Below the pieces are notes generated by a model. The model was not told the origin of the DNA and did no database searches. It saw only the letters and a program-made list of their open reading frames with translations. The position numbers were made by a program, and so were the translations under genes. Shown here one piece after another: positions 3,217-26,236 of a stretch of DNA of 64,000 nucleotides (the first letter of the stretch is position 1; each line of letters starts with the position of its first letter). Source of the DNA: Hydrogenibacillus sp. (lineage in GTDB: Bacteria > Bacillota > Bacilli > Thermicanales > DSM-22653); NCBI GenBank assembly GCA_014896255.1, contig JADBKT010000001.1:1-64000 (forward strand), read 5' to 3'.

Positions 3217-4164
3217 TCATTTCGCCTCGCCGCCTTCCGCCGCCACACACCCCGGCGCATCGCGCCCCTGTTGGCCGCCTTTTTCCAAAAGCAGCTGGCG
3301 AAAGCTGAGCGCCAGGGGCGAAAGCGGTTGTTGTACAGAGTGAACGACATACCATTTGCGAACGATCGGGAACCGTTCCACATCGAGCACGGTAATGAGA
3401 CCCATCTGCCGTTCCAAGCGGATCGCCGCCTCGGAGACGATCGAAACGCCGACCCTTGCGGCCACCGCTTCCTTGATCGCCGCGACGCTGCCGAGTTCCA
3501 TGCGGACGACCGGGAAGATCCCGAACTCCTGAAAAAACCGCTCCATCGTGCTGCGCGTCCCCGAACCTTTTTCGCGGATCAAAAACGGTTCCTTGGCCAA
3601 ACGCGAAAGCGGGATCCGCTCGACATCGGCCAGCGGATGATCGGCGGCGGCGATGACCACCAGCCGGTTGTCCAAAAAAGGCGCCGCCTCGAGATACGGC
3701 GACTGCTTCGGATAACCCATCACCGCCAAATCCGTCTCGCCGCGGAAAAGCCGCTGCAGAACGACGCTGCGGTTGACCACTTCCAGCTTGATTGCGACCT
3801 GCGGATGTTGACGATGGAATTCGCCCAAAAAGGGCGGCACGACGTACGCCCCCGCGGACGTATCGGCGGTGAGCGTGAGACTTCCGACGCGATGCGTCCG
3901 AATGTCCCTGATCGCCTGCTCGACGTCTTCAAGCTGACGGAACAACCGGTCCGCCGCTTCTTTCAAGTAGCTTCCCGCTTCGGTCAAGACGATCTGTTTG
4001 CCGGATTGCTCAAACAGCTTGACGCCGAAGTACTCTTCCAACTGACGGATGTGTTGCGACACCGCCGGCTGGCTCAAGTACAGCTCTTCCGCGGCGCGGG
4101 AAAAGCTCATGTGGCGGACGACGGTCCGGAAGATGTTCAGCCGACGCAGGTTCAAATATTCCAT
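3217..4164 (-). CDS. cbbR: LysR-type transcriptional regulator, probable CbbR
   Basis: This 315-residue protein has the LysR layout. The N-terminal helix-turn-helix lies at about residues 20-42 (FSRAAEELYLSQPAVSQHIR), then a linker helix and a two-lobed effector domain. CbbR proteins activate Calvin-cycle operons in response to metabolites such as NADPH or RuBP. Assignment as CbbR rests on family plus position: it directly follows the CO2-fixation block, 54 bases after nuoM. Unlike most cbbR genes it is not divergent from cbbL but lies downstream in the same direction. Its targets may be the palindromes upstream of cbbL at 12122-12158. CysB-, CysL- or YwfK-like regulators of the same family are the main alternatives. 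Confidence 0.7.
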   Translation of the reverse strand: MEYLNLRRLNIFRTVVRHMSFSRAAEELYLSQPAVSQHIRQLEEYFGVKLFEQSGKQIVLTEAGSYLKEAADRLFRQLEDVEQAIRDIRTHRVGSLTLTADTSAGAYVVPPFLGEFHRQHPQVAIKLEVVNRSVVLQRLFRGETDLAVMGYPKQSPYLEAAPFLDNRLVVIAAADHPLADVERIPLSRLAKEPFLIREKGSGTRSTMERFFQEFGIFPVVRMELGSVAAIKEAVAARVGVSIVSEAAIRLERQMGLITVLDVERFPIVRKWYVVHSVQQPLSPLALSFRQLLLEKGGQQGRDAPGCVAAEGGEAK

Positions 4165-4218: not shown

Positions 4219-5736
4219 TTACACTCCAAGGCGCGACAAGAACAGGGCGATCGTCTCGCGCATCGTCTCCCCGAGGACGAGCGGATACAAGCCGAGAAGC
4301 GCAATCATCGCCACCAGCGCCAGCATCGGCAGCACTTCGATCGGTTGGGCGTCGGAAGCTCCGGCGAGCGACGGTCGGGTCGGCCCGTAGGTCGTCGTCA
4401 ACACCATGCGCAAGAGATAAGCGGCGGTGAGCACCAGCCCGAGAGCGCCGAAGAGAGCGATCCAGACATGGCCGCTTGCATAGAGTCCGAGGTAAGCCTG
4501 CACTTCGGCGACAAAGCCGGAGAACGCCGGAAGGCCCAACGAGGCCAACGCCCCCGTTAAAAGCACGGCGCTGGAGAGCGGCATCGGTTTGGCGAGCCCG
4601 CCGAGTTCCTCAAGCGATGTCGTCCCGGTACGCTCGGCGATCACCCCGGCGGTCATGAAAAGCAGCGCGGAGATGAGTCCGTGCGACACCATCTGAAAAA
4701 TCGCGCCCTGAAAGCCGACGGTGTTCAGCGCGGCGATGCCGAACAGGACGATGCCCATATGGCTCACGCTGGAATAGGCGATGATGCGCTTCAATTCCCG
4801 TTCCGCCAGCGCCAAAATCGCACCGTACAAAAGATTGATCAACCCGAGCACGGCCAACCACCCCGCGAACGCTTTCGCGACGTCCGGGAAGAAGCCGACG
4901 CCAAAGCGCATCAGACCGTACCCGCCCATCTTCAGCAGTACGCCGGAAAGAATCATCGAGATCGGCGCCGAGGCCACCGGATGGACGTTCAGCACCCAAG
5001 TGTGGAACGGCACGATCGGCAGTTTGATGCCGAAAGCCATGAGCAGCAAAAGAAATATCCCGGTCCCAAGCTCGGACGAAATGTCCAATGCCCCGAGCCG
5101 TTCGGCGATCTCATCGATGTGAGTCGAGCCGGTCACGGCAAGCAGCACCAGAAATGCGACCAGCATGATCAGCGATCCCAAGCCGTTGTAGATGAGCAGC
5201 TGATACGCCGCCCGCTCCCGGGCAAATCCGCCCCAGATGCCGACGAGAAAAAATAGCGCCACCAGCGTAATTTCAAAAAAGATGAAGAATAGAAGAATAT
5301 TTTTCGATACAAAGACGCCGTTCATGCCGACCAGCAACAACAGATAAAACATAAAATACGCCTTGACCCGGTACGTGTTGTACCACGCCGCCAGCGCCGC
5401 CAAAAACCCGATGACCGTCGAAAGCATGAGGAGCGGCAGCGACAGACCGTCGATCGCCAGATCATACCCGATCGGCAGGTCGGCCAGGCGAACGGTATTC
5501 AGCAGCGGATCGAAGATCGGAAACCGAAGCGAAAACCAATGCGCATGCTCCTCGAATTGCCAGCCTCCGGCACTGAGATTAAACCGCGCATACAGCCGAA
5601 ACGCCAGCAAAAGCGGCACAAACGACCCCACGACGCCGATCCATCGGGCCACACCGCCTTCGCGGGACGGAACCAAGGCGAGGACGATCATCATCAAAAG
5701 CGGCGCAAAAACGATCAGGGTCAACAGATGATCCAT
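4219..5736 (-). CDS. nuoM: NADH-quinone oxidoreductase subunit M (proton-translocating antiporter-like subunit)
   Basis: This 505-residue, highly hydrophobic protein belongs to the NuoM/NuoL/MrpD family. The buried glutamate of the ion channel is present (FFEITLVALFFLVGIWGG, Glu155), as is the channel lysine (MAFGIKLPIVPFHTW, Lys238). LLKMGGYGLMRFGVGFFP is NuoM-like. Length and these motifs fit subunit M rather than L (longer) or N. It is the only nuoM in the window and lies 11.5 kb downstream of nuoN, beyond the Calvin-cycle genes, while the nuo operon itself jumps from L to N. The simplest reading is that it supplies the missing subunit. A stand-alone antiporter-like or carbon-uptake role is possible. 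Confidence 0.85.
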   Translation of the reverse strand: MDHLLTLIVFAPLLMMIVLALVPSREGGVARWIGVVGSFVPLLLAFRLYARFNLSAGGWQFEEHAHWFSLRFPIFDPLLNTVRLADLPIGYDLAIDGLSLPLLMLSTVIGFLAALAAWYNTYRVKAYFMFYLLLLVGMNGVFVSKNILLFFIFFEITLVALFFLVGIWGGFARERAAYQLLIYNGLGSLIMLVAFLVLLAVTGSTHIDEIAERLGALDISSELGTGIFLLLLMAFGIKLPIVPFHTWVLNVHPVASAPISMILSGVLLKMGGYGLMRFGVGFFPDVAKAFAGWLAVLGLINLLYGAILALAERELKRIIAYSSVSHMGIVLFGIAALNTVGFQGAIFQMVSHGLISALLFMTAGVIAERTGTTSLEELGGLAKPMPLSSAVLLTGALASLGLPAFSGFVAEVQAYLGLYASGHVWIALFGALGLVLTAAYLLRMVLTTTYGPTRPSLAGASDAQPIEVLPMLALVAMIALLGLYPLVLGETMRETIALFLSRLGV

Positions 5737-5789
5737 GGTCCGCCCCTTCCTTTCGAAACATTGTATGGTTCGGTGACAAGCGGGAGCCG

Positions 5790-5819
5790 GACGCCGGACG
5801 CGTGATGGCGTCCGGCGTC
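5790..5819. other. Perfect 12-bp stem hairpin between tkt and nuoM
   Basis: GACGCCGGACGC (5790-5801) and GCGTCCGGCGTC (5808-5819) are perfect inverted copies with a 6-base loop. No T-run follows on either strand, so this is more likely an intercistronic RNA-stabilising, processing or partial-attenuation structure than a full terminator. Confidence 0.7.
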
Positions 5820-5847
5820 ACGTCCCGACGTCTCGTCCGGATTCTGC

Positions 5848-7893
5848 CTAACGCGTATGCGTCGATATCTCCCACTTCGGGTAGACGCGCCGGACGACCC
5901 GAAGCGCCGTCTCGACGACGCGTTCAACCGTAAAGCCAAATTCCGCCATCAGCCGCTCGCCGGGCGCCGAAGCGCCGAAGCGATCGATGCCGAGCACCGT
6001 CCCGGCGTCGCCGACGTACCGTTCCCACCCGAACGGGTGCGCCATCTCGATCGCCACCCGGGCGCGGACCTCCGGCGGCAAAACCGATCGGCGATACGCT
6101 TCCGATTGAGCCTCGAACAGCTCCCAGCTCGGCATGCTCACCACGCGCACCCCAAGCCCGGACGAGGCCAGTGCCTCCGCCGCCCTCAGAGCCAGATCGA
6201 CTTCCGAACCGCTGGCGATCAGGATCACCTTCTCCGACGCCTTCGCAAATCCATGCTCGCGCAAGACGTACGCGCCGCGCGGAAGCGCGTCAAACGCCCG
6301 CTTCGCCGTCTCCGGAAGCACCGGAAGCCCTTGGCGGGAAAGAACGATGGCCACCGGACCCGTCGTCGTCTCCAACGCCACCTTGTACGCGGCGGACGTC
6401 TCGTTGGCGTCGGCCGGCCGGATGACGATCATGTTCGGCATGGCCCGGAGCGACGGCAAGTGTTCGATCGGCTGGTGCGTCGGACCGTCTTCGCCGACGG
6501 CGATGCTGTCGTGCGTGAGCACATACATGACCGGCGCGCCCATGAGCGCCGAGAGGCGCATCGCCGGCCGCATGTAGTCGGAGAAAACGAAAAACGTCCC
6601 GCCGTAGACGATCAGCCCGCCGTGGAGCGCCATCCCGTTTAAAATCGCCCCCATGGCGTGTTCCCGAACCCCAAACCAGATATTCCGCCCGGTGTAATCC
6701 GGCGGCGCAAAATCCCCCGCCTCTTTCAACGTCGTCTTGTTCGACGAGGCGAGATCCGCCGAACCGCCGATCAAATTCGGAAGAACGCCGGCCAACGCAT
6801 TCAGCACCTGACCGGACGCGTCTCGGGTGGCGATCTTCTTTCCGCCGTCCGCAGCAAAGCGCGGCAGGACCTCGCTTATGTTCTTCGGCAGCCGGCGCGC
6901 CAACGCCGCTTCATATGCTTCGGCGAGCTCCGGATGCGCCTTGCGGTAGCGCGTAAAGAGCGCCTGCCAGGCCGCTTCCGCCGCTTCGCCGCGGGCGCGC
7001 ACCGCGTAAAAATGCGCCCGCACGTCGTCCGGCACCTCAAACGGCGGGGATGTCCATCCGTAAGACGCCTTCGCCTGCGCCGCGTCCTCCGCCCCCAGCG
7101 GGGCGCCGTGCACGGCGCTCGTTCCGGCCTTGGCGCTGCCGTAGCCGATCACCGTGCGCACTTCGATCAGCGTCGGCCGGTCATGCGCCGCCTTGGCCTC
7201 GGCGATCGCCTGATCGATGGCCTGAAGGTCATGTCCGTCTTCGACCCTGAGCACCTGCCACCCGTACGCGCGAAAACGCGCCGCCACATCTTCGGTAAAC
7301 GCTTTGTCCGTCCCGCCGTCGAGCGAAACGTCGTTCGAGTCATAGAGGACGATCAGCCGCCCGAGGCGCAGATGCCCGGCCAGTGACGCCGCCTCCGCGG
7401 CGACGCCTTCCATCAGATCGCCGTCGCCGACCAGGGCATACGTATAATGGTCGACAATCGGAAAATCCGGTCGGTTGTACCGGGCGGCGAGGTGCCGCTC
7501 GGCCATCGCCATCCCCACGGCCATGGCGATGCCCTGCCCCAGAGGGCCGGTCGTCGCCTCCACGCCCGGCGTATGCCCGTATTCCGGATGTCCCGGCGTC
7601 TTCGAACCCCACTGGCGAAACGCCTTCAAATCGTCGATCGAAACGTCATAGCCGGTAAGATAGAGCAGGCTGTACAACAACATCGAGCCGTGGCCGGCGG
7701 ACAAAATGAACCGATCGCGGTCCGCCCATTTCGGATTGGCCGGATTGTGCCGCATATGCCGCGTCCACAGCACATACGCCATCGGCGCCGCGCCCATCGG
7801 CAAACCCGGATGCCCGGACTTGGCCTGTTCGACGGCGTCGATCGACAGCGCGCGGATGGCGGCGATCGCCCGAGCGCTCAAGTCGTCCGTCAT
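5848..7893 (-). CDS. tkt: Transketolase
   Basis: Transketolase of 681 residues, close to the usual 660-670. It transfers two-carbon ketol units between sugar phosphates using thiamine diphosphate and Mg2+. In the Calvin cycle it helps regenerate ribulose 5-phosphate. Motifs include [17 protein letters not shown] near the N-terminus, the [20 protein letters not shown] segment, and the ThDP motif starting GDGDLMEG. The pyrimidine-binding domain follows ([27 protein letters not shown]). The start is the ATG at 7893, with AAAGGGGAG in front; upstream sequence in frame is shadow of the reductase gene. It follows that reductase by 41 bases and precedes nuoM. Confidence 0.95.
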
Positions 7894-7934: not shown

Positions 7935-8957
7935 TCAACGCTGACCCATGGGAATGTCCGTCCGGTCGCTGGAGTGGATGGTCGAAAGCTTCGCCGTCGG
8001 GTCGATGTACGTCTTGGCGTTCGACACGGCGATCGGCGCCTCGCCGAGGCCCACGGCGATGAGCTTGATCTTCCCCGGGTAGGTCGTGATGTCGCCGATC
8101 GCGTAGACGCCCGGAATGTTCGTCTCCATCTTGGAGTTGACGACGATGCTGTTGCCTTCGATGTTGAGTCCCCAATTTTTGATCGGGCCGAGGGAAGCGG
8201 TATAACCGAGGCCGCTGACGACGGCGTCGACCTCGAGACGTTCCGTTTCCTGCGTCCGATTGTCGATCACCGTGACCGCCTCGACGCCCTCGGCCCCGTG
8301 GATTTCCTGAAGCTCCGTAAACAGTTTGACCGCGATCGACGAATTCATCAGCTGGTGGACGCTGTGTTCATGAGCCCGGAACTGATCGCGGCGATGGATC
8401 AGCGTCACCGCTTTGGCGACCGGCTCCAGCATGAGCGCATAATCGACCGCCGAATCGCCGCCGCCGACGACGAGTACGCGCTGGTCACGGAACGCCTCGA
8501 CCGAAGTGATGAAATAGTGAATGCCCTTGCCTTCGTAGTCATCGACGTTCTTGGCCGGAAGCTTCCGCGGCGTGAACGTTCCGATACCGCCGGCGATGAT
8601 CACCGCCTTGCTGTAATGACGCCCTTTGTTCGTCTCCAGGACGAACGAACCGTCTTCCTGCTTTTCCAGGCCGATGACCTGCTCCGACAGACAGATCGCC
8701 GGATTGAACTGCATGGCTTGTGTCTTCAGCTGTTCGACGAGATCCGCGCCGCGGATCTTCGGAAAACCGCCGACGTCGTAAATGTATTTCTCGGGATACA
8801 GGGCGGCCAATTGCCCTCCGAGCTGCGGCAGGCTGTCGATGACCTTGCACGACATCTCGCGCATACCGCAATAAAAAGCCGCAAAAAGACCCGCCGGCCC
8901 CCCTCCGATGACCGTGACGTCGTAGACTTTCTCGTCGACGACAGACGCTGTCGCCAT
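7935..8957 (-). CDS. Ferredoxin--NADP+ reductase, YumC type (thioredoxin-reductase-like fold)
   Basis: This 340-residue flavoprotein has an FAD motif [16 protein letters not shown], a second nucleotide-binding motif [13 protein letters not shown] and the C-terminal FAD motif [14 protein letters not shown]. There is no CxxC redox pair, which separates it from thioredoxin reductase. [20 protein letters not shown] matches Bacillus YumC-type ferredoxin-NADP reductases. It would move electrons between ferredoxin or flavodoxin and NADP(H). The location between cbbX and tkt suggests that it helps set NADPH supply for CO2 fixation, perhaps together with the NuoEFG-less complex I encoded nearby (inference). 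GAGGAGG lies about 11 bases before the ATG. Confidence 0.88.
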
Positions 8958-9065: not shown

Positions 9066-10043
9066 TTACTCAACCGACATTCGCGATCGGTCGGCGTCCG
9101 CACTGCCGAGCGGTTCCTGCATCACGCGGCTGGCCAAGATGTCTTCCGCCTCGATCGTCAATAGATCGGCGATCGTACAGGTGCTCAGCCCGTAGAGCCG
9201 GTTCGCCTGGCGCAGCCGCGCCCGATCGAGGGCGTTACGGACACTGCGGGCGTTGGCGAAGTGCGGCATCTGCATCCGCCGTTCGAGATAGCGGCGGAAA
9301 GCGTTTTCCGCCGCCGGACTAAAGCGGTATCCCTGTTCTCCGAGCATCCGCTTGGCGATCTCGAACAGTTCGTCGAGCGTATAGTCCGGAAAATCGATAT
9401 GGTGCGCGATACGCGAGCGCATCCCGGGATTCGATTGGAAAAACCGGTCCATTTTATCTTTGTACCCGGCCAAGACGACGACCAGATCGTCGCGGTTGTT
9501 CTCCATCACCTGCAGCAAAATCTCGATCGCTTCCTGGCCGTAGTCCCGCTCGTTCTCCGGGCGGTACAAGTAATAGGCCTCATCGATAAAAAGCACGCCG
9601 CCCATGGCGCGCTTCAGCACTTCTTTCGTCTTCGGCGCGGTGTGGCCGATGTACTGTCCGACGAGGTCGTCCCGCGTCACGGCGACGAGATGACCCTTGC
9701 GCACATAACCCAGGCGATGCAACATCTCAGCCATCCGCATGGCGACCGTCGTCTTTCCCGTTCCGGGATTGCCGGTCAACGACATGTGCAAAGAAGGCGG
9801 CGGCGTCGTAAGTCCAAGGCGCCGCCGCACGCGATCGACGAGAAGCAGCGCGGCGATCTCCCGAATTTTGGTCTTCACCGGCGCGAGGCCGACGAGATCG
9901 CGATCGAGTTGGTCGAGCACTTCGGTAATCTGTGTCTCGCGGACGATGGCCTGAAGGTCGACCGCTTCGGCGAGTTTGTCGTTCGGCAGCGCCTCCACCC
10001 GAAGCGAATCTTCCGCATTTTGCGCATCCTGTTGCACGGTCAT
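9066..10043 (-). CDS. cbbX: CbbX, red-type RuBisCO activase (AAA+ ATPase)
   Basis: This 325-residue AAA+ protein has Walker [10 protein letters not shown] at residues 91-99, Walker [10 protein letters not shown] at 150-158 and the pore-loop sequence [11 protein letters not shown]. CbbX forms hexamers that pull on the large-subunit C-terminus of red-type RuBisCO to release inhibitory sugar phosphates. It is usually activated by RuBP. It lies 70 bases downstream of cbbS in the typical cbbL-cbbS-cbbX order. AAGGAGGG precedes the ATG at 10043. Spo0VK/SpoVK-like proteins of Bacillus are the closest non-RuBisCO alternative, but the context settles the call. Confidence 0.95.
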
Positions 10044-10113: not shown

Positions 10114-10542
10114 CTAACCGTTGTAACGTTCGCCCTTCGGTCTGTCCGTGGCGTAACTGTGCAGCGTGTAGCGAATTTGCCGATCGCGCACTTCTTGCCT
10201 GATGACGTGGAAACCCGGTTCGTCTTTCGGCCGGTTGACGATGAACGACAGCGCCGTCGTTTGCCGCCCGTAGCTCCGATCGTAAGCGTTGACGCGGATA
10301 TAATGGTTCGGGTACGCTGCGCGGCATTGACGGATCTCATACAGCACGGCCGCCGGATCTTTCAGATCGAACATCGGCAGATCCCACATCTCCCAATAGA
10401 CGTTCCGCGGATGCGGATCATCGGTGAATTCGATGCTGATCGCCCAGCCGTTGTTCAAGGCGTATTCGACCTGCTTGAGGATCTCTTCGTCGGTCAGATC
10501 GGGGAGATAAGAAAAGGTCCCCTGCGTCAGGCGAAAAGCCAT
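10114..10542 (-). CDS. cbbS: RuBisCO small subunit (form I, red type)
   Basis: This 142-residue protein begins [21 protein letters not shown]. It has the conserved core [18 protein letters not shown] and [10 protein letters not shown]. It carries the extra C-terminal hairpin region (about residues 105-142) expected of red-type small subunits, which lines the central pore of the L8S8 enzyme. The start at 10542 is chosen over one eight codons upstream because AAGGGGCG lies just before it. It is 42 bases downstream of cbbL and certainly in the same transcript. Confidence 0.95.
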
Positions 10543-10584
10543 CGGATATCGCCCCTTCCGGATCATAAGATCAAAACGATCGGG

Positions 10585-12112
<1,528 letters not shown>

Positions 12113-12165: not shown

Positions 12166-12876
12166 TTATTGGATGGACGGTCCACGGGCATTCTCCCGTG
12201 CCTCGCGGGCGGCCCGATCGCCCGCCGCGCGGATCGCCTGGATCGCCGCCCGCCGATCGGCGTGGCCGAAGACCGCCGTGCCGGCGACGAGCACGTTCGC
12301 CCCGGCGCGGACGATCGCTTCGGCCGTCTCGGCGGTGATTCCGCCGTCGACTTCGATGTCCACGTCGGCCCGTCCGACGGCATCGAGCATCGCCCGCAAA
12401 GCGCTCGTCTTCTCGATCATTTGCGGGATGAACGCTTGACCGCCGAAACCCGGGTTGACGGTCATCAGGAGCACCATGTCGAGATCGGGGACGAGATGCC
12501 GCACCGCCTCGATCGGCGTTGAAGGCGTCAGGGCCACCGCCGCTTGGGCTCCCGCGGCACGGATCATCTGCACGGCGCGATGCGCGTGCGGCGTCGCTTC
12601 GACGTGAAAGGAGACGATGTCCGCGCCGGCGGCGATGAACTCGGGAATATAGCGCTCCGGCTCGACGATCATGAGATGCACGTCGAGCGGAAGGCGCGTA
12701 TGCGGCCGGATCGCCTTGACGACGGGGATGCCGATGGTGATGTTCGGCACGAACCGCCCGTCCATGACGTCGACGTGGATGAGATCGGCGCCGCCGGCTT
12801 CGACGTCGCGGATCTCCTCCGCCAAACGGCTGAAATCCGCCGACAAAATCGACGGCGCGATGGACAATGTGGACAT
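12166..12876 (-). CDS. rpe: Ribulose-phosphate 3-epimerase
   Basis: This 236-residue TIM-barrel enzyme interconverts xylulose 5-phosphate and ribulose 5-phosphate. Signature segments are IAPSILSADFSRL, HVDVMDGRFVPNITIG, MTVNPGFGGQAFIP and the closing VDGGITAETA. The metal-binding His and Asp residues are in HVDVMDG and VDGG. The start is the ATG at 12876 after GGGGAGG; a TTG five codons earlier is less likely. In the Calvin cycle it feeds PRK. It sits between glpX (27 bases upstream) and the cbbL promoter region, in the cluster from fba to tkt. Confidence 0.95.
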   Translation of the reverse strand: MSTLSIAPSILSADFSRLAEEIRDVEAGGADLIHVDVMDGRFVPNITIGIPVVKAIRPHTRLPLDVHLMIVEPERYIPEFIAAGADIVSFHVEATPHAHRAVQMIRAAGAQAAVALTPSTPIEAVRHLVPDLDMVLLMTVNPGFGGQAFIPQMIEKTSALRAMLDAVGRADVDIEVDGGITAETAEAIVRAGANVLVAGTAVFGHADRRAAIQAIRAAGDRAAREARENARGPSIQ

Positions 12877-12903: not shown

Positions 12904-13929
12904 TCACGCTTCTTCGACTTCGGCGACCCACTCCCGAACGTGATCGGGCTTGCTCGGCAGGTGGTGCCGGCCGTGGATAAAGCGCACCGTCTGTGTCCGC
13001 GCCCGCGCGACCAACGTGACCGTGTGCGCGGCGCCGCCGCCGACGAAGCGCACGCCGGAGAGGATCAGTCCGTCCGTCACGCCGGTCGCCGAAAAGATGG
13101 CGTCGTCGCTCTGGACCAGATCATCCAACGTCAACACGCGGCGCGCATCGTCGATGCCCATCGTCTTGAGCCGCGCCGTTTCTTCATCGTTTTGCGGCAC
13201 GAGGCGCCCTTGAAAATCCCCGCCCAAGCTTTTCATCGCCACCGCCGTGACGACGCCTTCCGGCGCGCCGCCGATGCCCATCATCAGGTCGATGCCCGTC
13301 TCTTCGAAGCAGGCGGCGATGGCCGGACTGACGTCGCCGTCTTGGATCAGCTTGGCCCGCGCCCCGAGCGCGCGGATCTCGTCGAGAATGTACCGGTTGC
13401 GCGGACGGTCGAGAAGGACGACGACGACGTCCTGCACCCGTTTGCCGACGGCCTCGGCGACGGCCAAGATGTTCTCGCGCACCGGTCGCTCGAGCGCAAT
13501 ACGACCCCGGGCTTTGGGGCCGACGGCGATCTTTTCCATATACATGTCCGGCGCGTGCAACAGTGCCCCGCGCGGGGCGACGGCGAGCACGGTGATCGCT
13601 CCCGGTGCGCCCGTGGCCAGCAAATTCGTTCCCTCCAGCGGGTCCACGGCGACGTCGACCTCCGGCCCGTCGCCGGAACCGACGCGTTCGCCGATGTAGA
13701 GCATCGGCGCTTCATCCAGCTCCCCTTCGCCGATGACCACCGTGCCGTCGATGCCGATCTCGCCGAGGACGGCGCGCATCGCCTTGGTCGCTGCATCGTC
13801 GGCCTGCCATTTGTCGCCCTTGCCCATCCAGCGGGCGGCGGCGAGCGCCGCCGCTTCGGTCACGCGGGCCATCTCCAACGTGAGCAGGCGCAAGTTGCCG
13901 CTTTTCAGCGTCTTCGCCCCACGCGTCAT
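12904..13929 (-). CDS. glpX: Class II fructose-1,6-bisphosphatase (GlpX type)
   Basis: This 341-residue GlpX-family phosphatase has the metal-binding and catalytic motifs GEGELDEAPML and VDPLEGTNLLATG, and MGIGGAPEGVVTA near the middle. In autotrophs GlpX enzymes often hydrolyse both fructose 1,6- and sedoheptulose 1,7-bisphosphate. No separate SBPase gene is seen, so a dual role is plausible but unproven. The ATG at 13929 shares a base with the gap stop codon (TGATG), indicating translational coupling. The C-terminal stretch after about residue 318 (HHLPSKPDHVREWVAEVEEA) is ordinary for the family. Confidence 0.93.
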   Translation of the reverse strand: MTRGAKTLKSGNLRLLTLEMARVTEAAALAAARWMGKGDKWQADDAATKAMRAVLGEIGIDGTVVIGEGELDEAPMLYIGERVGSGDGPEVDVAVDPLEGTNLLATGAPGAITVLAVAPRGALLHAPDMYMEKIAVGPKARGRIALERPVRENILAVAEAVGKRVQDVVVVLLDRPRNRYILDEIRALGARAKLIQDGDVSPAIAACFEETGIDLMMGIGGAPEGVVTAVAMKSLGGDFQGRLVPQNDEETARLKTMGIDDARRVLTLDDLVQSDDAIFSATGVTDGLILSGVRFVGGGAAHTVTLVARARTQTVRFIHGRHHLPSKPDHVREWVAEVEEA

Positions 13930-14963
13930 CACACCTGGTCCCCCACGCGGTCGAGTTCCTTCGTGCGCACGCCGATGTAATGGAGCAAATCGACCATGCG
14001 GTGGGCAAAGCCCATCTCGTTGTCGTACCAGCCGAGCACCTTGACCGTCCGCTCGCCGACGACCATCGTCGACAATCCGTCGATGACGCACGAATGCGGG
14101 TCGCCGATGTAATCGACGGAGACGAGGGGCTCATAGGAGACGTCCAAAATCTTCTGCAGTCGGCCTGCGGAGGCGTCCTCAAAGGCGGCGTTCACATCGT
14201 CCGGCGTGACCCGCGTCTTCAGCGTCGCCACCAGATCGACGATGGAGACGGTCGGCGTCGGGACGCGAATGGAGATGCCGTTCAATTTGCCGTTCAGTTC
14301 CGGGAAGATCTTCCCCATCGCCCGGGCGGCGCCGGTTGTCGTCGGAACGATCGATTGGCTCGCCGCGCGGGCCCGGCGCAGATCTTTGTGCGGATTGTCG
14401 AGGCTGCGCTGATCGTTCGTGAAGCTGTGCACCGTCGTCATCGCCCCTTCGACGATGCCGAAGCGCTCGTGCAGGACGGCGACGATCGGCGCCAGGCAGT
14501 TCGTCGTGCACGACGAGCTGGAGATCACGTCGTGGCGTTCGGGGTCATACAGATCATGGTTCACGCCGTAGACGACCATGAGATCGTCGGATTGGGCGGC
14601 GGTGGAGATGATCACCTTTTTCGCCCCGGCGCGAAGGTGCATCGCCGCCCCATCCCGCGTCGTGAATTGGCCGGTGGCCTCCAGGACGATCTCCGCCCCG
14701 AGCGCGCCCCACGGGAGGTTCAGCGGATTGCGGTCGGAGAACACGCGGATGCGGCGGCCATCGATGAACAGATCATCCCCGTCGGCGATCACGTCGACCG
14801 GCCAACGCCCTTGCGCGGAATCGTACTTCAACAGATGCGCCAGCGTCTTCGCGTCGGTGGTGGCGTTCACGGCGACGATCTCGAGTTCCGGATGGTTCCA
14901 CGCGGCCCGCAAGGTGAGGCGCCCGATGCGCCCCATGCCGTTGATGCCTGCTTTGACGGTCAT
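13929..14963 (-). CDS. gap: Glyceraldehyde-3-phosphate dehydrogenase, GapB-like
   Basis: This 344-residue GAPDH begins with the Rossmann motif INGMGRIGRL. The active-site segment SSSCTTNCLAP contains the catalytic Cys. WYDNEMGFAHRM lies near the C-terminus. The position after the second beta-strand reads NATTD instead of the NDLTD usual in strictly NAD-dependent glycolytic enzymes. It resembles the NADP-using, anabolic GapB type. That would suit reduction of 1,3-bisphosphoglycerate in CO2 fixation. It follows prk after a 109-bp gap with two hairpins and is coupled to glpX. Cofactor choice is inference from the motif. Confidence 0.92.
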   Translation of the reverse strand: MTVKAGINGMGRIGRLTLRAAWNHPELEIVAVNATTDAKTLAHLLKYDSAQGRWPVDVIADGDDLFIDGRRIRVFSDRNPLNLPWGALGAEIVLEATGQFTTRDGAAMHLRAGAKKVIISTAAQSDDLMVVYGVNHDLYDPERHDVISSSSCTTNCLAPIVAVLHERFGIVEGAMTTVHSFTNDQRSLDNPHKDLRRARAASQSIVPTTTGAARAMGKIFPELNGKLNGISIRVPTPTVSIVDLVATLKTRVTPDDVNAAFEDASAGRLQKILDVSYEPLVSVDYIGDPHSCVIDGLSTMVVGERTVKVLGWYDNEMGFAHRMVDLLHYIGVRTKELDRVGDQV

Positions 14964-15072: not shown

Positions 15073-16041
15073 TTAGGTGGCTCTCGCTTTCGGCGCGTCT
15101 TCCCCGCTTTGGCGCGCGACGAGCCGCTCGCGTTGGACGTCGCGCCCGTAGGCGAGTTCGACGATCATGCTGGCGATCAAGTACTGGGTGACTTTAATCG
15201 GCGTATAGTGCGTGTCGTTCATCTTTGCTTTCAAGTGGTGATTGTCGCTGATCATCTCCAGAAGCGCCGTCATCGATTCGATCGGCGTGTGTCCGCCGAT
15301 GTCGGCGATCTCCATGTCTTCGCCGACGATTTTGTCGTGGTAATGCACCGCTTCGATCAGTCCGAAGCGCGAACCGAGAGACAGCCACTTCACCAGGCGG
15401 CGTTTGTTGCCGTTTAACCGTTCGGCGATCTGTACCTTGATCGGTTCGGGATCGTCCGCCGACGGGGCGCGCGCATCGTCCGGAAAATACTTGATGACGA
15501 TGTCGGCAAAAGCCTTCTGCGGTTCGATGTACCGCTCGACGTCCGGTTTGCGCCGCTCGATCTCGGCCAACACCTCGTCTTCGGTATAGCCGCGCGTCGC
15601 GGCGTCGCGTCGCACTTTCCACCGCACCCGAAGACGCGTATCGGTGTCGAAATAGATCTTGAGATCGAGCGCCTCGCGCAGTTTTTCCAAGTACAGGATG
15701 TGCAGGCCTTCCAACAACACGATGTCCTTCGGGATGACGATTTCCGGGCCTTTGATCTTGCCGTCGCTGTGGTCGTAAATCGGTTTTTCGATCGCCCGCC
15801 CCGCTTTGAGCGCCCACACGTGCTCGATGAGCAGCCCGAGGTTGTTCGCTTTCCACGGATGGAGCGCCGTGATGCCCACCCGGCTCCGCTCCGTGCGGTC
15901 GAGCGAATGATAATCGTCGATGCTGATGACCGTCACCCGTTCTTCGCCGATCAGCGCCTTAAGCTCGGCGACGAACGTCGATTTTCCGGCACCGCTGTCG
16001 CCGGCGATGCCGATGATGGTCACCTTCCGTCCTGCCATCAT
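15073..16041 (-). CDS. prk: Phosphoribulokinase, class II (cyanobacterial/plant-like) without redox cysteines
   Basis: This enzyme of about 322 residues phosphorylates ribulose 5-phosphate to RuBP. The P-loop reads GDSGAGKST, followed by ISIDDYHSLDR, KPIYDHSDG, LLEGLHILY and RRDAATRGYTEDEVL. This pattern matches class II PRKs, not the roughly 290-residue class I enzymes of proteobacteria. The two regulatory cysteines of plant and cyanobacterial enzymes, in the P-loop and before IDDYHS, are replaced by Ala and Ser, so thioredoxin control is not expected. The start is ATG-ATG at 16041/16038 after GGAAGGT; the second ATG has the better spacing. It lies 109 bases downstream of fba. Confidence 0.92.
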   Translation of the reverse strand: MMAGRKVTIIGIAGDSGAGKSTFVAELKALIGEERVTVISIDDYHSLDRTERSRVGITALHPWKANNLGLLIEHVWALKAGRAIEKPIYDHSDGKIKGPEIVIPKDIVLLEGLHILYLEKLREALDLKIYFDTDTRLRVRWKVRRDAATRGYTEDEVLAEIERRKPDVERYIEPQKAFADIVIKYFPDDARAPSADDPEPIKVQIAERLNGNKRRLVKWLSLGSRFGLIEAVHYHDKIVGEDMEIADIGGHTPIESMTALLEMISDNHHLKAKMNDTHYTPIKVTQYLIASMIVELAYGRDVQRERLVARQSGEDAPKARAT

Positions 16042-16150: not shown

Positions 16151-17014
16151 CTAAAAGCGATGATGGCTGCCGAACAGGCGGATTTTTTTGCGGATCACTT
16201 CTTTGATCGCCTCCCGGGCCGGACCCAGATACTTGCGCGAATCGAACACGTCCGGCTTCTCCGCCAGCACCTTCCGGACGACGCGGGTGAATTCCGCCTG
16301 GCTTTCGGTGTTGACGTTGATCTTGCCGACGCCGAGGGCGATGGCCTGCCGGATGTCCTCATCCGGCACCCCGGAACCGCCGTGCAGGACGATGGGCTTT
16401 CCTGTCCGCTTGTGAATCGCCTCCAGGCGGTCGAAGGCGATCTGCGGGCGGCCTTTATAGAGGCCGTGCGCCGTGCCGACGGCCGGCGCAATGGCGTCGA
16501 TCTTCGTTTCCTCGGCAAACCGTTCCGCTTCGTCGACCCGCGCCAGCATCGCCTCGCGCTCGTCGACGCTCACCTCATCTTCCGTGCCGCCGATGCGCCC
16601 GATCTCCCCTTCGACGGAGACGCCGGCGGCATGCGCCGCCTCGACGACCTGTCGGGTGACGGCGATGTTTTCTTCCAGCGGGTGTTCTGATCCGTCGTAC
16701 ATGACCGAATCGAACCCGGCGCGGATGGCTTTCATGATAAAGTCAAAATCCGGTCCGTGGTCGAGGTGCAGGATGATCGGCACGCCGGCCTTGAGTTTCG
16801 CCGCGTTGGCCAGCGCGACCAGATAGTCGAGGCCGAAGTACTTCGTCGAGCTCACGCTCACGCCGAGGATGACCGGCGAGCGCTCCTCTTCGGCCACCTC
16901 GACGATGGCCTGCAAATACTCGAGGCCGTTCAAGTTGAACTGTCCGACGGCATACCCTTTTTGCACGGCATCGTTCAGCACTTCCCGATACGATGCTTTC
17001 GGCGGTACATACAC
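16151..17014 (-). CDS. fba: Class II fructose-bisphosphate aldolase
   Basis: This 287-residue Zn-dependent aldolase has LHLDHGPDFDFIMKAI, which contains metal-binding His. Other motifs are GEIGRIGGTEDEV, the AVGTAHGLYKGRP segment, VLHGGSGVPDEDI and GVGKINVNTE. It condenses triose phosphates to fructose 1,6-bisphosphate. In Calvin-cycle organisms it often also makes sedoheptulose 1,7-bisphosphate. The start is the GTG at 17014, preceded by GGAGG at 7 bases; no in-frame ATG lies near. It is the first gene after the promoter at 17145-17174 and probably heads the fba-prk-gap-glpX-rpe transcript. Confidence 0.94.
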   Translation of the reverse strand: MYVPPKASYREVLNDAVQKGYAVGQFNLNGLEYLQAIVEVAEEERSPVILGVSVSSTKYFGLDYLVALANAAKLKAGVPIILHLDHGPDFDFIMKAIRAGFDSVMYDGSEHPLEENIAVTRQVVEAAHAAGVSVEGEIGRIGGTEDEVSVDEREAMLARVDEAERFAEETKIDAIAPAVGTAHGLYKGRPQIAFDRLEAIHKRTGKPIVLHGGSGVPDEDIRQAIALGVGKINVNTESQAEFTRVVRKVLAEKPDVFDSRKYLGPAREAIKEVIRKKIRLFGSHHRF

Positions 17015-17083
17015 GCGGTTTCCCTCCGTTCTCCTCTGTTTTGCCTGTTTTGTCCGCATCGCCGCTGTTTCACTTTCTGTACC

Positions 17084-17144: not shown

Positions 17145-17174
17145 ATGATACCAGAAAGATTTAAAACGTGTCAA
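17145..17174 (-). promoter_or_regulatory. Sigma-A promoter upstream of fba
   Basis: Reading leftward, a perfect -35 TTGACA (17174-17169), an 18-base spacer and -10 TATCAT (17150-17145) lie in the 215-bp gap between nuoN and fba. The leader to the fba GTG would be about 124 bases. This is the best promoter match in the Calvin-cycle part. Confidence 0.7.
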
Positions 17175-17229
17175 ATTAGCATCTCCCAATACGTGTATAT
17201 CGATCCGCTTATCGTTTGTCGATGGGCGG

Positions 17230-18699
17230 TCAAAACGCGCGCTGGATGACTTCGACGATCGGTCCGAAAAACAGCCCGCCGAGGAGCGATCCGACGACGC
17301 CGACGGCGAAGACGATGCCCGTTCCCGGGGAAAGGACGAGCGGCCGCTCCGTCTCCCCGGGGCGCATGAACACTTGGCTCAAGAGGGCGAAGTAATACCC
17401 GTACGAGATGAGCGTCGCCACCACGAGCGCGCCGGCCAGAACGAAGTGGCCGCCGGCAAGCGCGCCGAGCAAGATGTACCACTTGCCGAAAAACCCGGCC
17501 GTCAGCGGTATTCCGGCGAGCGACAAAAGCAAGACGAGCATCCCCACCGCCACCCCCGGGGACCGATGATACAATCCGGCAAACGCTTCCAACCGATACG
17601 ACCCGCGATCTTTGGCCACCGCTTCGATGATCGCGAACGCGCCGAGCGTCATGAACAGATAGGCGACGAGGTAAAAGGCGACCTGTTCGACGAACATCGG
17701 GCTCGCCGCGGCGAACGGGACGAAGAGGTAGCCGGCATGGGCGATCGAAGAGTAGGCGAGCATCCGTTTGGCGTCCGTCTGCCAAAGGGCGACGGCGTTG
17801 CCGATGAGCATGGACAAGGCGGCGATGAGCGCCAGCGTCGCCGCACTGCCGAAGGCGCCGTCCGTCCCGCGCCCATACTCCGGCAGACGGATAAAGACGG
17901 CGATCATCAGCCGCACGAGCACGGCAAAACCGGCCGCTTTGGAGACAAAAGCCAAAAAACCGGTGACCGCCGTCGGCGCGCCTTGATACACATCCGGCGT
18001 CCACATGTAAAACGGCATGCTGGAGGCTTTAAACGTCAACGCGGCAAACATGAAAAAAAAGCCGATATAGACGAGCGCCTCGTAACGCAACAGCGCCGGA
18101 TCGGTGAGGCGCTCGCCCAGCGCATACAAATCCGTCGTGCCGGTCAATCCGACGAGGAACGAGGCGCCGAACGCGAAGGCGGCCGTTGCCGTTGCCCCGC
18201 TCAAGACGTATTTCAGCGCCCCTTCGAGCGAAGCCACGGTGCGCTTTTTAAAGCCCACCAGGGCATAAGAAGCCACGGACAGCGTCTCGACGGCCACGAA
18301 CAACAACGCCATATCCCGCGCCGAGACCATGACGAGGGCGCCGAGGAGGCCCAAAAAAAGGAGGACGAGGGCGTCGCCCTCCGCCCGGCGGAAGGACGGG
18401 TCATGTTCATCGAGGGCCATGAACAAGACGAGCGCGGTGCCGAAGAGGAGGAGGAGCTTCATCATCAGGGCGAAACCGTCGACGACGAACGCCCCGGCAA
18501 AATCGCCCGGATTGCGGAACGACAGGACGACGGCAACGGCGGCCGAAAAAAGACCCAAAAAAGCGAGCGGATACAGCCCGCGTCGCGAGCGCTCCGGCGG
18601 GATGATGAGATCAACGAGGAGAAGGACGATCGCGAAAAACAGCACGATCGCCTCCGGCACGAGCAAATGCCACGGCAACGCCGTGAGCAAATCGGGCAT
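17230..18699 (-). CDS. nuoN: NADH-quinone oxidoreductase subunit N
   Basis: This 489-residue antiporter-like membrane subunit has many hydrophobic helices. FVAVETLSVASYALVGFKKR carries the channel glutamate. ASSMPFYMWTPDVYQGAPT is the characteristic NuoN segment. The start is the ATG at 18699, preceded by GGAGGTGAG. It lies 66 bases downstream of nuoL: subunit M, normally found between them, is absent at this place. It is the last nuo gene before the promoter of the Calvin-cycle genes, so read-through into fba is possible. Confidence 0.95.
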   Translation of the reverse strand: MPDLLTALPWHLLVPEAIVLFFAIVLLLVDLIIPPERSRRGLYPLAFLGLFSAAVAVVLSFRNPGDFAGAFVVDGFALMMKLLLLFGTALVLFMALDEHDPSFRRAEGDALVLLFLGLLGALVMVSARDMALLFVAVETLSVASYALVGFKKRTVASLEGALKYVLSGATATAAFAFGASFLVGLTGTTDLYALGERLTDPALLRYEALVYIGFFFMFAALTFKASSMPFYMWTPDVYQGAPTAVTGFLAFVSKAAGFAVLVRLMIAVFIRLPEYGRGTDGAFGSAATLALIAALSMLIGNAVALWQTDAKRMLAYSSIAHAGYLFVPFAAASPMFVEQVAFYLVAYLFMTLGAFAIIEAVAKDRGSYRLEAFAGLYHRSPGVAVGMLVLLLSLAGIPLTAGFFGKWYILLGALAGGHFVLAGALVVATLISYGYYFALLSQVFMRPGETERPLVLSPGTGIVFAVGVVGSLLGGLFFGPIVEVIQRAF

Positions 18700-18765: not shown

Positions 18766-20682
18766 TCAGGAAGTGAGCACATAAGCGAGGAGAATAACGA
18801 CGAGAAACAGGAGCGCGATCAAGTTATAACGCTGGATCTGACCGTTTTGCAGTCTTGACAAAGCATATCCGAATCCTCTGACGGCGCCGACGGTCAGGGC
18901 GACGAGCCCTTCCAACACGCCCCGATCAACGACCTGTGCCGCGCGCCCCAGGGCCGACGCCCCGGCGGCCGCCCCACGCGCATACAGCGCATCGATGTAA
19001 AAGCCGTGTTTGAGCCATGCCCAGGGGATGCGTTCTGCCTGCGCCGTGCCCGCGCGTGCGCCGCGGGCCTCTCCTTGGACGAAAACCGCATAGGCCAAAA
19101 AGAGACCGAGAAGCGCCAGCGCGGTGGAAACGACGGCCAGCCACCGCGGCCCATGCACGTTCGCCGCCTGGATGCCGAGAAAGCGTGAAAACAGCGGTGC
19201 CGCCTCCGTCTCCACGAAACCGGCGATGACGGTCAACGCCGAAAGCACCCACAGCGGCGCGCGCATCACCGTCGGAACGGGACGCGCCTCTCCTGCCGCG
19301 CGCCCCGCGCCGACAGCGCGCGTCGCCGATCCGTGTCGCCCCGCATCCGGTGCCGGTTCACCGCGCGGCGGGCCGAGGAAGGCCAGTCCGAACATCCGAC
19401 CCATATACAGGGCGGTAAGCGGCACGGTGGCGAGAAGCAGCCAAAACCCCGCCGAACCGGACACACTGGACTGGGCCAGGATGCGCTCCTTGGAAAAATA
19501 GCCGGAAAGCGGCGGAATGCCGATCAACGCCAGCATGCCGAGCAAGAAAACCATCCCGATGAACGGCATCTTCTTCCACAGACCGCCCATACGCCTGAGG
19601 TCATATGTCCCGATCGCCGTATAGACGGCCCCGGCGCCGAGGAAGAGGAGCGCTTTGAAAAAGGCATGCGTCGTAAGGTGGAACATCGCCGCCGCCGCGC
19701 TCCCGACGCCGAGCGCATGCATCATGTACCCGAGCTGGCTGATCGTCGAATACGCCAGCACGCGCTTCATATCGTTCTGCCCGACGGCGACGAGCGCGGC
19801 AAAAAGCGCCGTAAATGCGCCGATCCAGGAGACGACGAGCGACGCTGTCGGAGAAGCGGCAAAAAGCGGAAAGAGGCGGGCGACGAGGTAGACGCCGGCG
19901 GCGACCATCGTCGCCGCGTGAATGAGGGCAGAGACCGGCGTCGGTCCTTCCATCGCGTCCGGAAGCCACACGTGCAGCGGAAACTGCCCGGACTTCCCGG
20001 CGGCTCCGAGAAAAATGAACAGCGCCAGGATCGTCGTCATCGTGGAGGAAAGCGAACCGTCTTGCACGGCTTGGAAGAGATCGTCGAACCGAAAACTGCC
20101 GACGTGCACATAGACGAGCCAGAGGGCGACGAACAGCCCGATGTCGCCGAAGCGGGTGACGAGAAACGCCTTTTGCGCCGCCCGTCGCGCTTCCGGACGG
20201 TGGACGTCGAAGCCGATCAACAAAAACGAAGCCAAGCCGACGAGCTCCCAAAAAATATACAGTTCCAGCAGGTTCGGCGCGAGCACCAGGCCGAGCATGG
20301 CCAGCGTGAACAGGCTCAAGTGTTGAAAGTAGACGGCGAGGCGCGATGCGCCCTGCATATAGCCGATGGAGTAGACGTGCACCAGAAAGCTGACCAGGCC
20401 GACGATGACGATCATCAGTGCGCTTTGAGGGTCGGCCGAAAGTTGCACGGTGACGTCCAGAGTGCCCAAGTTGAGCCAGGGGATCGGCGGACTTTCGACC
20501 GCCCCCGTCTCGTTTACGGCGAGATACACCACCGTCGAAGACAAGAGCGAGAGAAAGACGGCGGCCGAGCCGACGAGGCCGGCCCATCGGCGCAGCCGAT
20601 CGCCGAAAACGAGCAGCACAACGAAGGACAAAAAAGGCCAGCCCAAGACCAGCCACAGCGCGATGTGGGCATCCACCGCCAT
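18766..20682 (-). CDS. nuoL: NADH-quinone oxidoreductase subunit L
   Basis: This 638-residue proton-pumping subunit has FWELVGLASFLLIGFDVHRP with the channel glutamate, FPLHVWLPDAMEGPTPVSAL with HVWLPDAMEGPT, and AYSTISQLGYMMHALG. After about residue 480 the protein continues into the extra transmembrane and lateral-helix region that sets L apart from M and N. The start is taken as ATG 20682; a GTG two codons on (20676) has better spacing to GGGAGGTG. The segment around residues 425-450 is a proline/arginine/alanine-rich loop. nuoK lies 72 bases upstream. Confidence 0.95.
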   Translation of the reverse strand: MAVDAHIALWLVLGWPFLSFVVLLVFGDRLRRWAGLVGSAAVFLSLLSSTVVYLAVNETGAVESPPIPWLNLGTLDVTVQLSADPQSALMIVIVGLVSFLVHVYSIGYMQGASRLAVYFQHLSLFTLAMLGLVLAPNLLELYIFWELVGLASFLLIGFDVHRPEARRAAQKAFLVTRFGDIGLFVALWLVYVHVGSFRFDDLFQAVQDGSLSSTMTTILALFIFLGAAGKSGQFPLHVWLPDAMEGPTPVSALIHAATMVAAGVYLVARLFPLFAASPTASLVVSWIGAFTALFAALVAVGQNDMKRVLAYSTISQLGYMMHALGVGSAAAAMFHLTTHAFFKALLFLGAGAVYTAIGTYDLRRMGGLWKKMPFIGMVFLLGMLALIGIPPLSGYFSKERILAQSSVSGSAGFWLLLATVPLTALYMGRMFGLAFLGPPRGEPAPDAGRHGSATRAVGAGRAAGEARPVPTVMRAPLWVLSALTVIAGFVETEAAPLFSRFLGIQAANVHGPRWLAVVSTALALLGLFLAYAVFVQGEARGARAGTAQAERIPWAWLKHGFYIDALYARGAAAGASALGRAAQVVDRGVLEGLVALTVGAVRGFGYALSRLQNGQIQRYNLIALLFLVVILLAYVLTS

Positions 20683-20754: not shown

Positions 20755-21096
20755 TCAGTGCTTCAGCGTATCGTGCATATCGACGTTCGGCGTCGCTTTC
20801 AGCCGATACAAGGCGATCAGGACGGCCAGCCCGACGGCCACCTCGGCCGCGGCAACGGCGATGATCATCAACGCAAAAACCTGCTCCGACACCGCCGGCC
20901 GGGCATCCGGAACGTCCGCGGTCAAGATCGCGGGCCCCGAGGAACTGAAGGCCACGAGGTTGATCAGTGCCGCAGCGAGCATCAGCTCGATCGCGAGCAG
21001 CACGATCACCGCATTCCGCCGCGTCAAGGCGGCATACAGGCCGACGGAAAACAACAGCGCGGCGAACAACACATACTGCGACAGAGCTGCTTCCAT
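20755..21096 (-). CDS. nuoK: NADH-quinone oxidoreductase subunit K
   Basis: This 113-residue protein has three hydrophobic segments. It contains the two membrane-embedded glutamates expected of subunit K, in AIELMLAAALINLVAFS and VAAAEVAVGLAVLIALYR. The acidic/proline loop between helices 2 and 3 (ADVPDARPAVS) is longer than in many homologues. The ATG at 21096 overlaps the nuoJ stop (TGATG); a GTG immediately upstream could also serve. It belongs to the membrane arm of complex I and participates in proton translocation together with J and the antiporter-like subunits. Confidence 0.95.
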   Translation of the reverse strand: MEAALSQYVLFAALLFSVGLYAALTRRNAVIVLLAIELMLAAALINLVAFSSSGPAILTADVPDARPAVSEQVFALMIIAVAAAEVAVGLAVLIALYRLKATPNVDMHDTLKH

Positions 21097-21623
21097 CACC
21101 GCCGATCCTCCTTCGCGCGATCGGGAGCGTCTTCCTTGGCCAAGACGACCGAGCCGATGAGCGCCGCCAACAGCAAAACGCCGATCAACTCAAAAGCGAG
21201 GACGTATTGACCGGAAAAAAGGTGTGCGCCGATTTCCGCAGCCGAAATCGGTGTCTCTCTCTCCACGGGGGTGTAAAGCGGCGTTCGGATCAACGCATAG
21301 AAAAAGATCGCAAACAACGCGGCCGAGACGAAAAGCGAAAGAAGGCGGTGCCAGCGGTTCGGATTCGCGGGCGGATCTTCGGCATCGTGCTTGGTGAGCA
21401 TGATGCCGAAGACGGCGAGCGTCGTCACCGCCCCGGTGTAGACGATCACCTGCATGACGCCGAGAAATTCCGCCCCGAGAAGGAAAAAGAAGGCAGCGAT
21501 ACCGAGAAAGCTGAGCGCCACGGCAAACGCCATATGCAACACGCGCGTCTCCGTGAGCATCACCATCCCGCCGATGAGCACGAAGGCGGCGACGATCAAG
21601 AAGACGACGAGGTTTGCCGCCAT
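21096..21623 (-). CDS. nuoJ: NADH-quinone oxidoreductase subunit J
   Basis: This 175-residue membrane protein has five hydrophobic segments. FLLGAEFLGVMQVIVYTGAVTTLAVFGIML is the diagnostic J motif: a pi-bulge helix followed by a loop, split here between two stretches. The start is the ATG at 21623, which lies inside the last 28 bases of nuoI; GGGAG sits 11 bases upstream. The C-terminal tail is charged (KEDAPDRAKEDRR). The gene is translationally coupled on both sides, to nuoI and nuoK. Confidence 0.94.
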   Translation of the reverse strand: MAANLVVFLIVAAFVLIGGMVMLTETRVLHMAFAVALSFLGIAAFFFLLGAEFLGVMQVIVYTGAVTTLAVFGIMLTKHDAEDPPANPNRWHRLLSLFVSAALFAIFFYALIRTPLYTPVERETPISAAEIGAHLFSGQYVLAFELIGVLLLAALIGSVVLAKEDAPDRAKEDRR

Positions 21624-22045
21624 GGCAAGTTCAACTCCCGCACGTTCGTATCGTTCGCATCGAGCCACTGCATGTCTTTGTTCAACGCATCGCGGCTGTA
21701 CGTCGCCAGCTCGAAATTCGTCGTCATGACGATCGCTTCGGTCGGGCAAACTTCCGTGCAAAAATCACATAAAATGCAGATTTCAAAATTGATATCGAAA
21801 TACTCCAGCACTTTCCCCTTTTTCTCCGGGTCCGGATGCGGCTTCCCTTTGAGCGTGATGCACTGTGTCGGACAAATGATCGCACACTGGTTGCAGACGA
21901 TGCACTTGTCCGGATAAAGCTTTTGAATGCCGCGCACGCGATTCGGGAACTCGAACGGTTCATCCGGGTATTTGGTCGTCACCTTCGGCTTGAACATCTC
22001 CTTGAACGTCACGCCCAAGCCTTTCAAGAGACCCGTCCCGTACAT
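21596..22045 (-). CDS. nuoI: NADH-quinone oxidoreductase subunit I (two 4Fe-4S clusters)
   Basis: This 149-residue ferredoxin-like subunit has two complete motifs: Cys48/51/54/58 in CIVCNQCAIICP and Cys90/93/96/100 in CILCDFCTEVCP. These hold clusters N6a and N6b, which pass electrons toward N2 in NuoB. Because no NuoEFG is encoded nearby, NuoI may be the docking side for ferredoxin or another donor, as in ferredoxin-using complexes (inference). The start is the ATG at 22045 with GGGAGGT about 10 bases upstream. The 3' end overlaps nuoJ by 28 bases. Confidence 0.95.
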   Translation of the reverse strand: MYGTGLLKGLGVTFKEMFKPKVTTKYPDEPFEFPNRVRGIQKLYPDKCIVCNQCAIICPTQCITLKGKPHPDPEKKGKVLEYFDINFEICILCDFCTEVCPTEAIVMTTNFELATYSRDALNKDMQWLDANDTNVRELNLPWRQTSSSS

Positions 22046-22086
22046 CCGCGAGACCACCTCCCAGGGCTGATGCATGCACGGAGGAT

Positions 22087-26176: not shown

Positions 26177-26206
26177 CGTCCTCCTCCTTTCGCTGGGTAT
26201 GCTTAC

Positions 26207-26236
26207 ATTATAGTGACTTTCTGGCGGAATTGTATA
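26207..26236 (-). promoter_or_regulatory. Sigma-A promoter upstream of rpiB-nuo
   Basis: Reading leftward, -35 TATACA (26236-26231), an 18-base spacer and a perfect -10 TATAAT (26212-26207) end about 31 bases before the rpiB ATG. The leader is therefore very short (about 25 bases). No further good promoter is seen before the one at fba. Confidence 0.6.

Follow-up and report, generated by a model that had tools for sequence, protein, structure and literature searches.

A second complex I gene set interlocked with the Calvin-cycle gene cluster in Hydrogenibacillus and Kyrpidia

Among Bacillota, Desulfitobacterium hafniense possesses a complex I encoded by eleven genes, nuoABCDHIJKLMN, which lacks an NADH module and has ordinary channel residues in NuoL, NuoM and NuoN (PMC11238625). 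Cyanobacterial NDH-1, which is fed by ferredoxin, is likewise a NuoEFG-less complex I. To our knowledge, no linkage of ndh genes to a whole cbb cluster occurs in cyanobacteria. On the side of carbon fixation, Sulfobacillus-like and other bacteria with form IE Rubisco carry the cbb gene set fba-prk-rpe-rbcLS-cbbX-gap-tkt, and in Hydrogenibacillus schlegelii two complexes I have already been reported in print.

The locus described here shares features with each of these systems and differs from all of them. It encodes the same eleven subunits as D. hafniense, again with no NADH module and with ordinary channel residues; here, however, the genome has another such gene set besides, and the one described is interwoven with a cbb cluster that includes a gene for a ferredoxin-NADP reductase (FNR), and its nuoM is displaced behind tkt. 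As in cyanobacteria, an EFG-less complex I would be tied to ferredoxin, and the best-scoring solved relative of the NuoM encoded here is cyanobacterial NdhD1, although ChpXY are absent. The cbb gene set is held in common with the form IE Rubisco bacteria (RbcL about 81% identical), but the Sulfobacillus-like cbb cluster that we examined has no nuo genes, nuoM or FNR. The two complexes reported for H. schlegelii are almost certainly the two discussed below, since that species has the cluster in the same order; the accessible part of that report lists the complexes, and not the nuo-cbb arrangement, the split nuoM or a Kyrpidia counterpart. In a search of the literature on these organisms, which covered main texts from largely open-access journals, neither the interlocked cluster nor the split nuoM nor its sharing with Kyrpidia turned up. 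The components of the cluster and the two H. schlegelii complexes are already known, while for the joint nuo-cbb cluster we found no prior report.

Organization of the cluster

The window analysed here is a stretch of 64,000 nucleotides from a Hydrogenibacillus sp. genome (GCA_014896255.1, contig JADBKT010000001.1, positions 1 to 64,000). Its minus strand carries a supercluster with the order rpiB-nuoABCDHIJKLN-fba-prk-gap-glpX-rpe-rbcLS-cbbX-FNR-tkt-nuoM-cbbR, preceded by polC and proS and followed by an SDR gene; all features of the supercluster given below lie on this strand. The nuo block is headed by the gene for ribose-5-phosphate isomerase B, rpiB (25667-26242; TIGR01120), as it is in both genera that possess the cluster. 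There follow nuoA (25250-25618), nuoB (24702-25259), nuoC (24203-24712; PF00329), nuoD (23096-24199), nuoH (22087-23103), nuoI (21596-22060; Fer4 domains), nuoJ (21096-21630; PF00499), nuoK (20755-21099; profile match), nuoL (18766-20682; NF005141, 628 bits) and nuoN (17230-18699; TIGR01770), the starts of nuoI and nuoJ being approximate. NuoL and NuoN were recognized by their channel residues as well. With nuoM, found behind tkt, all eleven subunit genes are present in the cbb-linked cluster.

A sequence-only reading of this window had placed nuoN directly after nuoL with a gap of 66 bp, which proved correct: nuoL ends at 18766 and nuoN starts with an ATG at 18699 that has its own Shine-Dalgarno sequence. 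The same reading had ten Calvin-cycle genes standing before nuoM, which lies 11.5 kb downstream of nuoL and nuoN. There are indeed ten genes in between, all on the same strand, of which nine belong to the Calvin cycle and Rubisco; the tenth encodes the FNR, which is not a Calvin-cycle enzyme.

These ten genes begin with those for fructose-bisphosphate aldolase (fba, 16151-17059; orthologs 90% identical in H. schlegelii and 75-76% in Kyrpidia), phosphoribulokinase (prk, 15073-16041; 87% and 77%) and glyceraldehyde-3-phosphate dehydrogenase (gap, 13929-14963; assigned from its sequence; 78% and 74%). They continue with a glpX-type class II fructose-bisphosphatase (12904-13900; TIGR00330, 412 bits), ribulose-phosphate 3-epimerase (rpe, 12166-12876; assigned from position and sequence, 78% identical to its H. 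schlegelii ortholog and absent from the Kyrpidia version), form I rbcL (10585-12039; NF003252, 762 bits), rbcS (10114-10566; PF00101) and, in a conserved position next to rbcS, the Rubisco activase AAA protein gene cbbX (9066-10000; PF17866 and PF00004). The FNR gene (7935-8957) codes for a YumC/TrxR-like protein whose best PDB matches are ferredoxin-NADP reductases (6gas, 426 bits; 3lzw, 408 bits), and is followed by the transketolase gene tkt (5848-7890; PF00456, 516 bits). The starts of glpX, cbbX and tkt are approximate. Beyond nuoM (4219-5736), after 54 bp, lies a gene for a LysR-type regulator (3217-4164), for which the best family match is NF045990 with 227 bits. The curated cut-off for CbbR, 450, is not reached, and the gene is named cbbR from its best match and its position; orthologs are found in H. 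schlegelii (83%) and at the start of the cluster in Kyrpidia (66%).

Identity of the displaced NuoM and a second nuo operon

The nuoM reading frame is intact and encodes 505 amino acids. Its product scores 438.4 bits with TIGR01972 (NDH_I_M), above the curated threshold of 263.8. In an alignment with the E. coli protein, Glu155 and Lys238, which the sequence-only reading had called intact, correspond to E144 and K234; together with K269 and E411 (E. coli K265 and E407), all four channel residues are in place. Equivalents of these four residues are kept in every cbb-linked NuoM, and the residues tested in cbb-linked NuoL and NuoN are also intact, so that, to judge from the residues in all three subunits, the cbb-linked complex I looks able to pump protons.

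NuoM, MrpD and DabB have a common fold. This fold, together with the Rubisco genes nearby, could be taken to mean that the protein is an MrpD-like cation/proton antiporter or a subunit for CO2 uptake, either DabB or an NdhD3/D4 acting with ChpX/Y, and an antiporter-like or CO2-uptake role had been put forward from the sequence. The results make such a role highly improbable. MrpD models reach only about 176 bits against this protein, compared with 438 for TIGR01972, and a tree that includes NuoL, NuoN, MrpA, MrpD and DabB places it inside the NuoM clade and apart from MrpD and DabB, with the NuoM group, E. coli and Bacilli NuoM included, on one side of a branch with a support of 99. Profile searches for DabA (PF10070) found none in the window's genome or in Kyrpidia, and ChpX/ChpY (CupA/B; PF10216) were missing from all four genomes that carry the cbb-nuo cluster, with a positive Synechococcus control; since these partners are missing, CO2 uptake is unlikely. 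The same cluster, moreover, holds the other ten nuo genes. We rejected an identity as an MrpD antiporter, as MrpD branches separately and the gene's neighbours are cbb and nuo genes, and on the basis of the tree, the HMM scores and the missing partners we likewise rejected DabB and NdhD3/4. H. schlegelii does possess a DabA gene, which adjoins a DabB-like gene of its own (L102, G001:C1:57000-63500) and lies away from the cbb-nuo cluster.

A search with PF00361 revealed six antiporter-like proteins in the window's genome, namely NuoL, NuoM and NuoN of the window and a contiguous L-M-N set on contig C27. The latter belongs to a complete and contiguous nuoABCDHIJKLMN operon (C27:83.3-93.2 kb) that stands directly behind atpA, atpG, atpD and atpC, with its nuoM at C27:84805-86310. 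As atp followed by nuo is the usual gene order in Bacilli, we take the C27 operon to be the resident copy.

Taken alone, the gene order in the window would fit a simple relocation, in which the genome's only nuoM left the nuoL-nuoN region upon insertion of the cbb genes, as the sequence-only reading had proposed as one option. The nuoM of the window is, however, the only one in the window and not in the genome: with a second, canonical nuoM in an unbroken nuoLMN on C27, behind atpAGDC, relocation of a single nuoM was rejected, a second canonical nuoM being what the sequence-only reading had itself named as refuting it, and we regard this explanation as scarcely credible. That H. schlegelii and Kyrpidia have the split order too speaks against it as well, and means that the split is neither recent nor local; an assembly artefact was also rejected, because the H. 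schlegelii MA48 isolate genome shows the identical order. The initial suggestion that a cbb-associated rearrangement separated nuoM from nuoL and nuoN thus holds in part, since a separation did occur, but in an ancestor, in a second operon, and in a form common to H. schlegelii and Kyrpidia. Its alternative, a paralogue with a special job alongside a true nuoM elsewhere, was right in expecting a second nuoM, although the protein is no lone paralogue but one subunit of another complete complex I, whose job is probably tied to CO2 fixation.

Distribution and descent of the cbb-nuo cluster

In the nearest genome, that of H. schlegelii MA48 (contig NZ_JXBB01000012.1), the gene order is the same from rpiB to the SDR gene, split included, with NuoM 64% and RbcL 92% identical to the window's, and a second nuo operon lies on another contig. 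The two species' cbb-linked NuoL proteins (window 18766-20682 and H. schlegelii L027:7057-8898) share 54% identity, compared with 93% for NuoD and 92% for RbcL, and H. schlegelii NuoL has unusually long branches in both copies.

Two Kyrpidia genomes, from another family and taken to be K. spormannii EA-1 and K. tusciae, have on one strand the order cbbR-fba-prk-gap-glpX-rbcL-rbcS-cbbX-FNR-tkt-nuoM-rpiB-nuoABCDHIJKLN. This is the Hydrogenibacillus order circularly permuted, and it lacks rpe. All four cbb-nuo genomes have nuoM after tkt and nuoL followed by nuoN; both genera have the FNR gene inside the cluster, and both keep a separate contiguous nuo operon. No further cases were found in samples of 300 genomes of the class and 398 of the phylum, and a scan of a genome collection for the cluster matched only H. 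schlegelii and two unrelated contigs. A close Rubisco occurs in only 6 of the 300 class genomes sampled, two of these six being the Kyrpidia genomes with the cluster; a third genome of that genus (G059, 86% complete) is without one, and the NuoM listed for it belongs with the resident ones. Two probable Brockia genomes possess a Calvin cycle with Rubisco and a single nuo set with no nuo-cbb linkage, and Sulfobacillus-like genomes have a form I Rubisco cbb cluster without nuo, so that the linkage is not required for autotrophy. In the probable Brockia genomes (L031 and L033; G002 and G004) there is no nuoM between nuoL and nuoN, and a lone nuoM lies far off, not near Rubisco.

A phylogenetic analysis of 34 NuoM sequences grouped the cbb-linked NuoM proteins of both genera as one clade (support 98/94) inside the clade of the Hydrogenibacillus family (99/97), far from the resident NuoM of Kyrpidia. 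Eight concatenated core subunits likewise put the Kyrpidia cbb-linked complex inside the Hydrogenibacillus family clade, with a support of 100. Grouping the Kyrpidia cbb-linked complex with the Kyrpidia resident copy was rejected by the AU test (p=2.8e-12 for the core, p=0.0068 for NuoM), and with it an independent duplication within Kyrpidia. In the best trees for NuoL, NuoN and the core, the four cbb-linked sets form one group, with support that is weak to modest. As regards a possible common origin of its detached nuoM with that of the cbb cluster, Brockia stands next to the cbb clade in the NuoM tree (83/91), where an alternative placement was not rejected (p 0.35), and outside the cbb-linked group in the NuoL and NuoN trees.

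Because the Kyrpidia cbb-linked complex nests among those of the Hydrogenibacillus family and at a great distance from the resident complex of Kyrpidia, the cbb-nuo block was very probably transferred between the families. The simplest account would be a single origin in the Hydrogenibacillus lineage followed by movement to Kyrpidia as a unit; this direction is suggested by the nesting, and more genomes could change it. Within Kyrpidia, the resident NuoM of three genomes (L053/G044, L054/G025 and L105/G059) has a glutamate at the position of E. coli K234, the TM7 lysine, with the motif VEEALVPFHTW instead of xKxPxxPxHxW. Every other NuoM aligned has the lysine, the cbb-linked one in these same species included, and the resident complex I of Kyrpidia may have an altered M channel.

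Regulation and a proposed direction of electron flow

Between nuoN and fba lies a candidate cbb promoter (17145-17195), in which the block CACGTATNGNNNNATGCNAA (17176-17195) abuts a match to a promoter, TTGACA-18-TATCAT (17174-17145). Each of the four cbb-nuo genomes contains a single exact copy of the block, in every case upstream of fba, and genome G003 has one further match. A cbbR gene is linked to the cluster in the window and stands at its head in Kyrpidia. We consider CACGTATNGNNNNATGCNAA a candidate CbbR operator. If it is one, the cbb transcription unit of Hydrogenibacillus would have nuoM at its distal end, read from the CbbR-type promoter that precedes fba, and the second complex I would be complete only when CO2 fixation is switched on. 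In Kyrpidia, nuoM abuts tkt, and the two are thus probably translationally coupled. In both Hydrogenibacillus species, the tkt-nuoM spacers contain strong GC hairpins that are mutually unrelated (window 5749-5847, z -2.8; H. schlegelii L028:7160-7190, z -5.9). The hairpin in the window has a 12-bp stem with a weak U-tract or none and is a possible partial terminator or processing signal; such hairpins may tune the level of nuoM, and could also reduce read-through into nuoM, which would count against cotranscription.

The profile for NuoF/HoxF (PF01512) has no match in the window's genome or in seven relatives, with a positive control in 9 genomes, which implies that there is neither an NADH module nor an NAD-reducing Hox hydrogenase. 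The hydrogenases published for these genera are of groups 1d/2a (PMC10215811). At C13:93182-94727 of the window's genome (G000), the coding sequence for a group-1-like NiFe hydrogenase large subunit is broken up among several frames and contains one TGA; either the gene has decayed or the assembly is wrong at this point. The electrons of H2 or CO probably enter at the quinone, in which case supplying NADPH to the cycle would need an uphill step. We propose that the second complex I works backwards during growth on H2 or CO, with the proton-motive force driving electrons from quinol to ferredoxin and the FNR of the cluster turning reduced ferredoxin into NADPH for the Calvin cycle (quinol to ferredoxin to FNR to NADPH). 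Desulfitobacterium does not need its 11-subunit complex I to respire H2 (PMC11238625), so that the supply of NADPH is left as a motive for linking such a complex with autotrophy.

Alternatively, the same second complex I might run forward, from reduced ferredoxin or another low-potential donor to quinone with proton pumping, or be a spare copy, its linkage to cbb reflecting co-transfer of an island for autotrophy and energy. The ordinary channel and core residues would suit this, one of two copies may be superfluous, and gene linkage by itself does not tell which way the electrons flow; the EFG-less complex I of Desulfitobacterium, for its part, was inferred to make menaquinol (PMC11238625). 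Yet a resident nuo operon is already present in both genera, and the join includes the FNR and keeps nuoM behind tkt in both genera across the permutation, which points to selection for co-expression and not to chance neighbourhood. We consider forward flow or redundancy a rather unlikely explanation.

The gene at 4219-5736 encodes a genuine NuoM, which belongs to an additional complex I that is complete with 11 subunits and lacks NuoEFG. In our reading this complex would be dedicated to autotrophy and operate in reverse, with nuoM locked into the cbb unit; we give this reading a probability of roughly 0.6, with the reverse direction as its proposed part. Against it stands that Bacilli employ FNR and ferredoxin for other purposes as well. 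Our fuller proposal is tentative, and we would put it somewhat short of even odds: the block would be a horizontally mobile unit for autotrophy, its dedicated second complex I, running in reverse, would feed the Calvin cycle through ferredoxin and FNR, and the place of nuoM within the cbb unit would act as a lock that makes assembly of this complex depend on CO2 fixation.

The sharing of this arrangement by hydrogen-oxidising, heat-loving bacteria of two families suggests that this complex I serves CO2 fixation, and implies that an entire complex I can pass from one family to another along with a pathway for autotrophy. With the full Calvin cycle, a single CbbR and an FNR combined with a second EFG-less complex I, the cluster names candidate partners for the NuoEFG-less complex I and bears on the source of NADPH for CO2 fixation in aerobic H2- and CO-oxidisers that have no NAD-reducing hydrogenase. 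Both questions become testable in cultured H. schlegelii and Kyrpidia.
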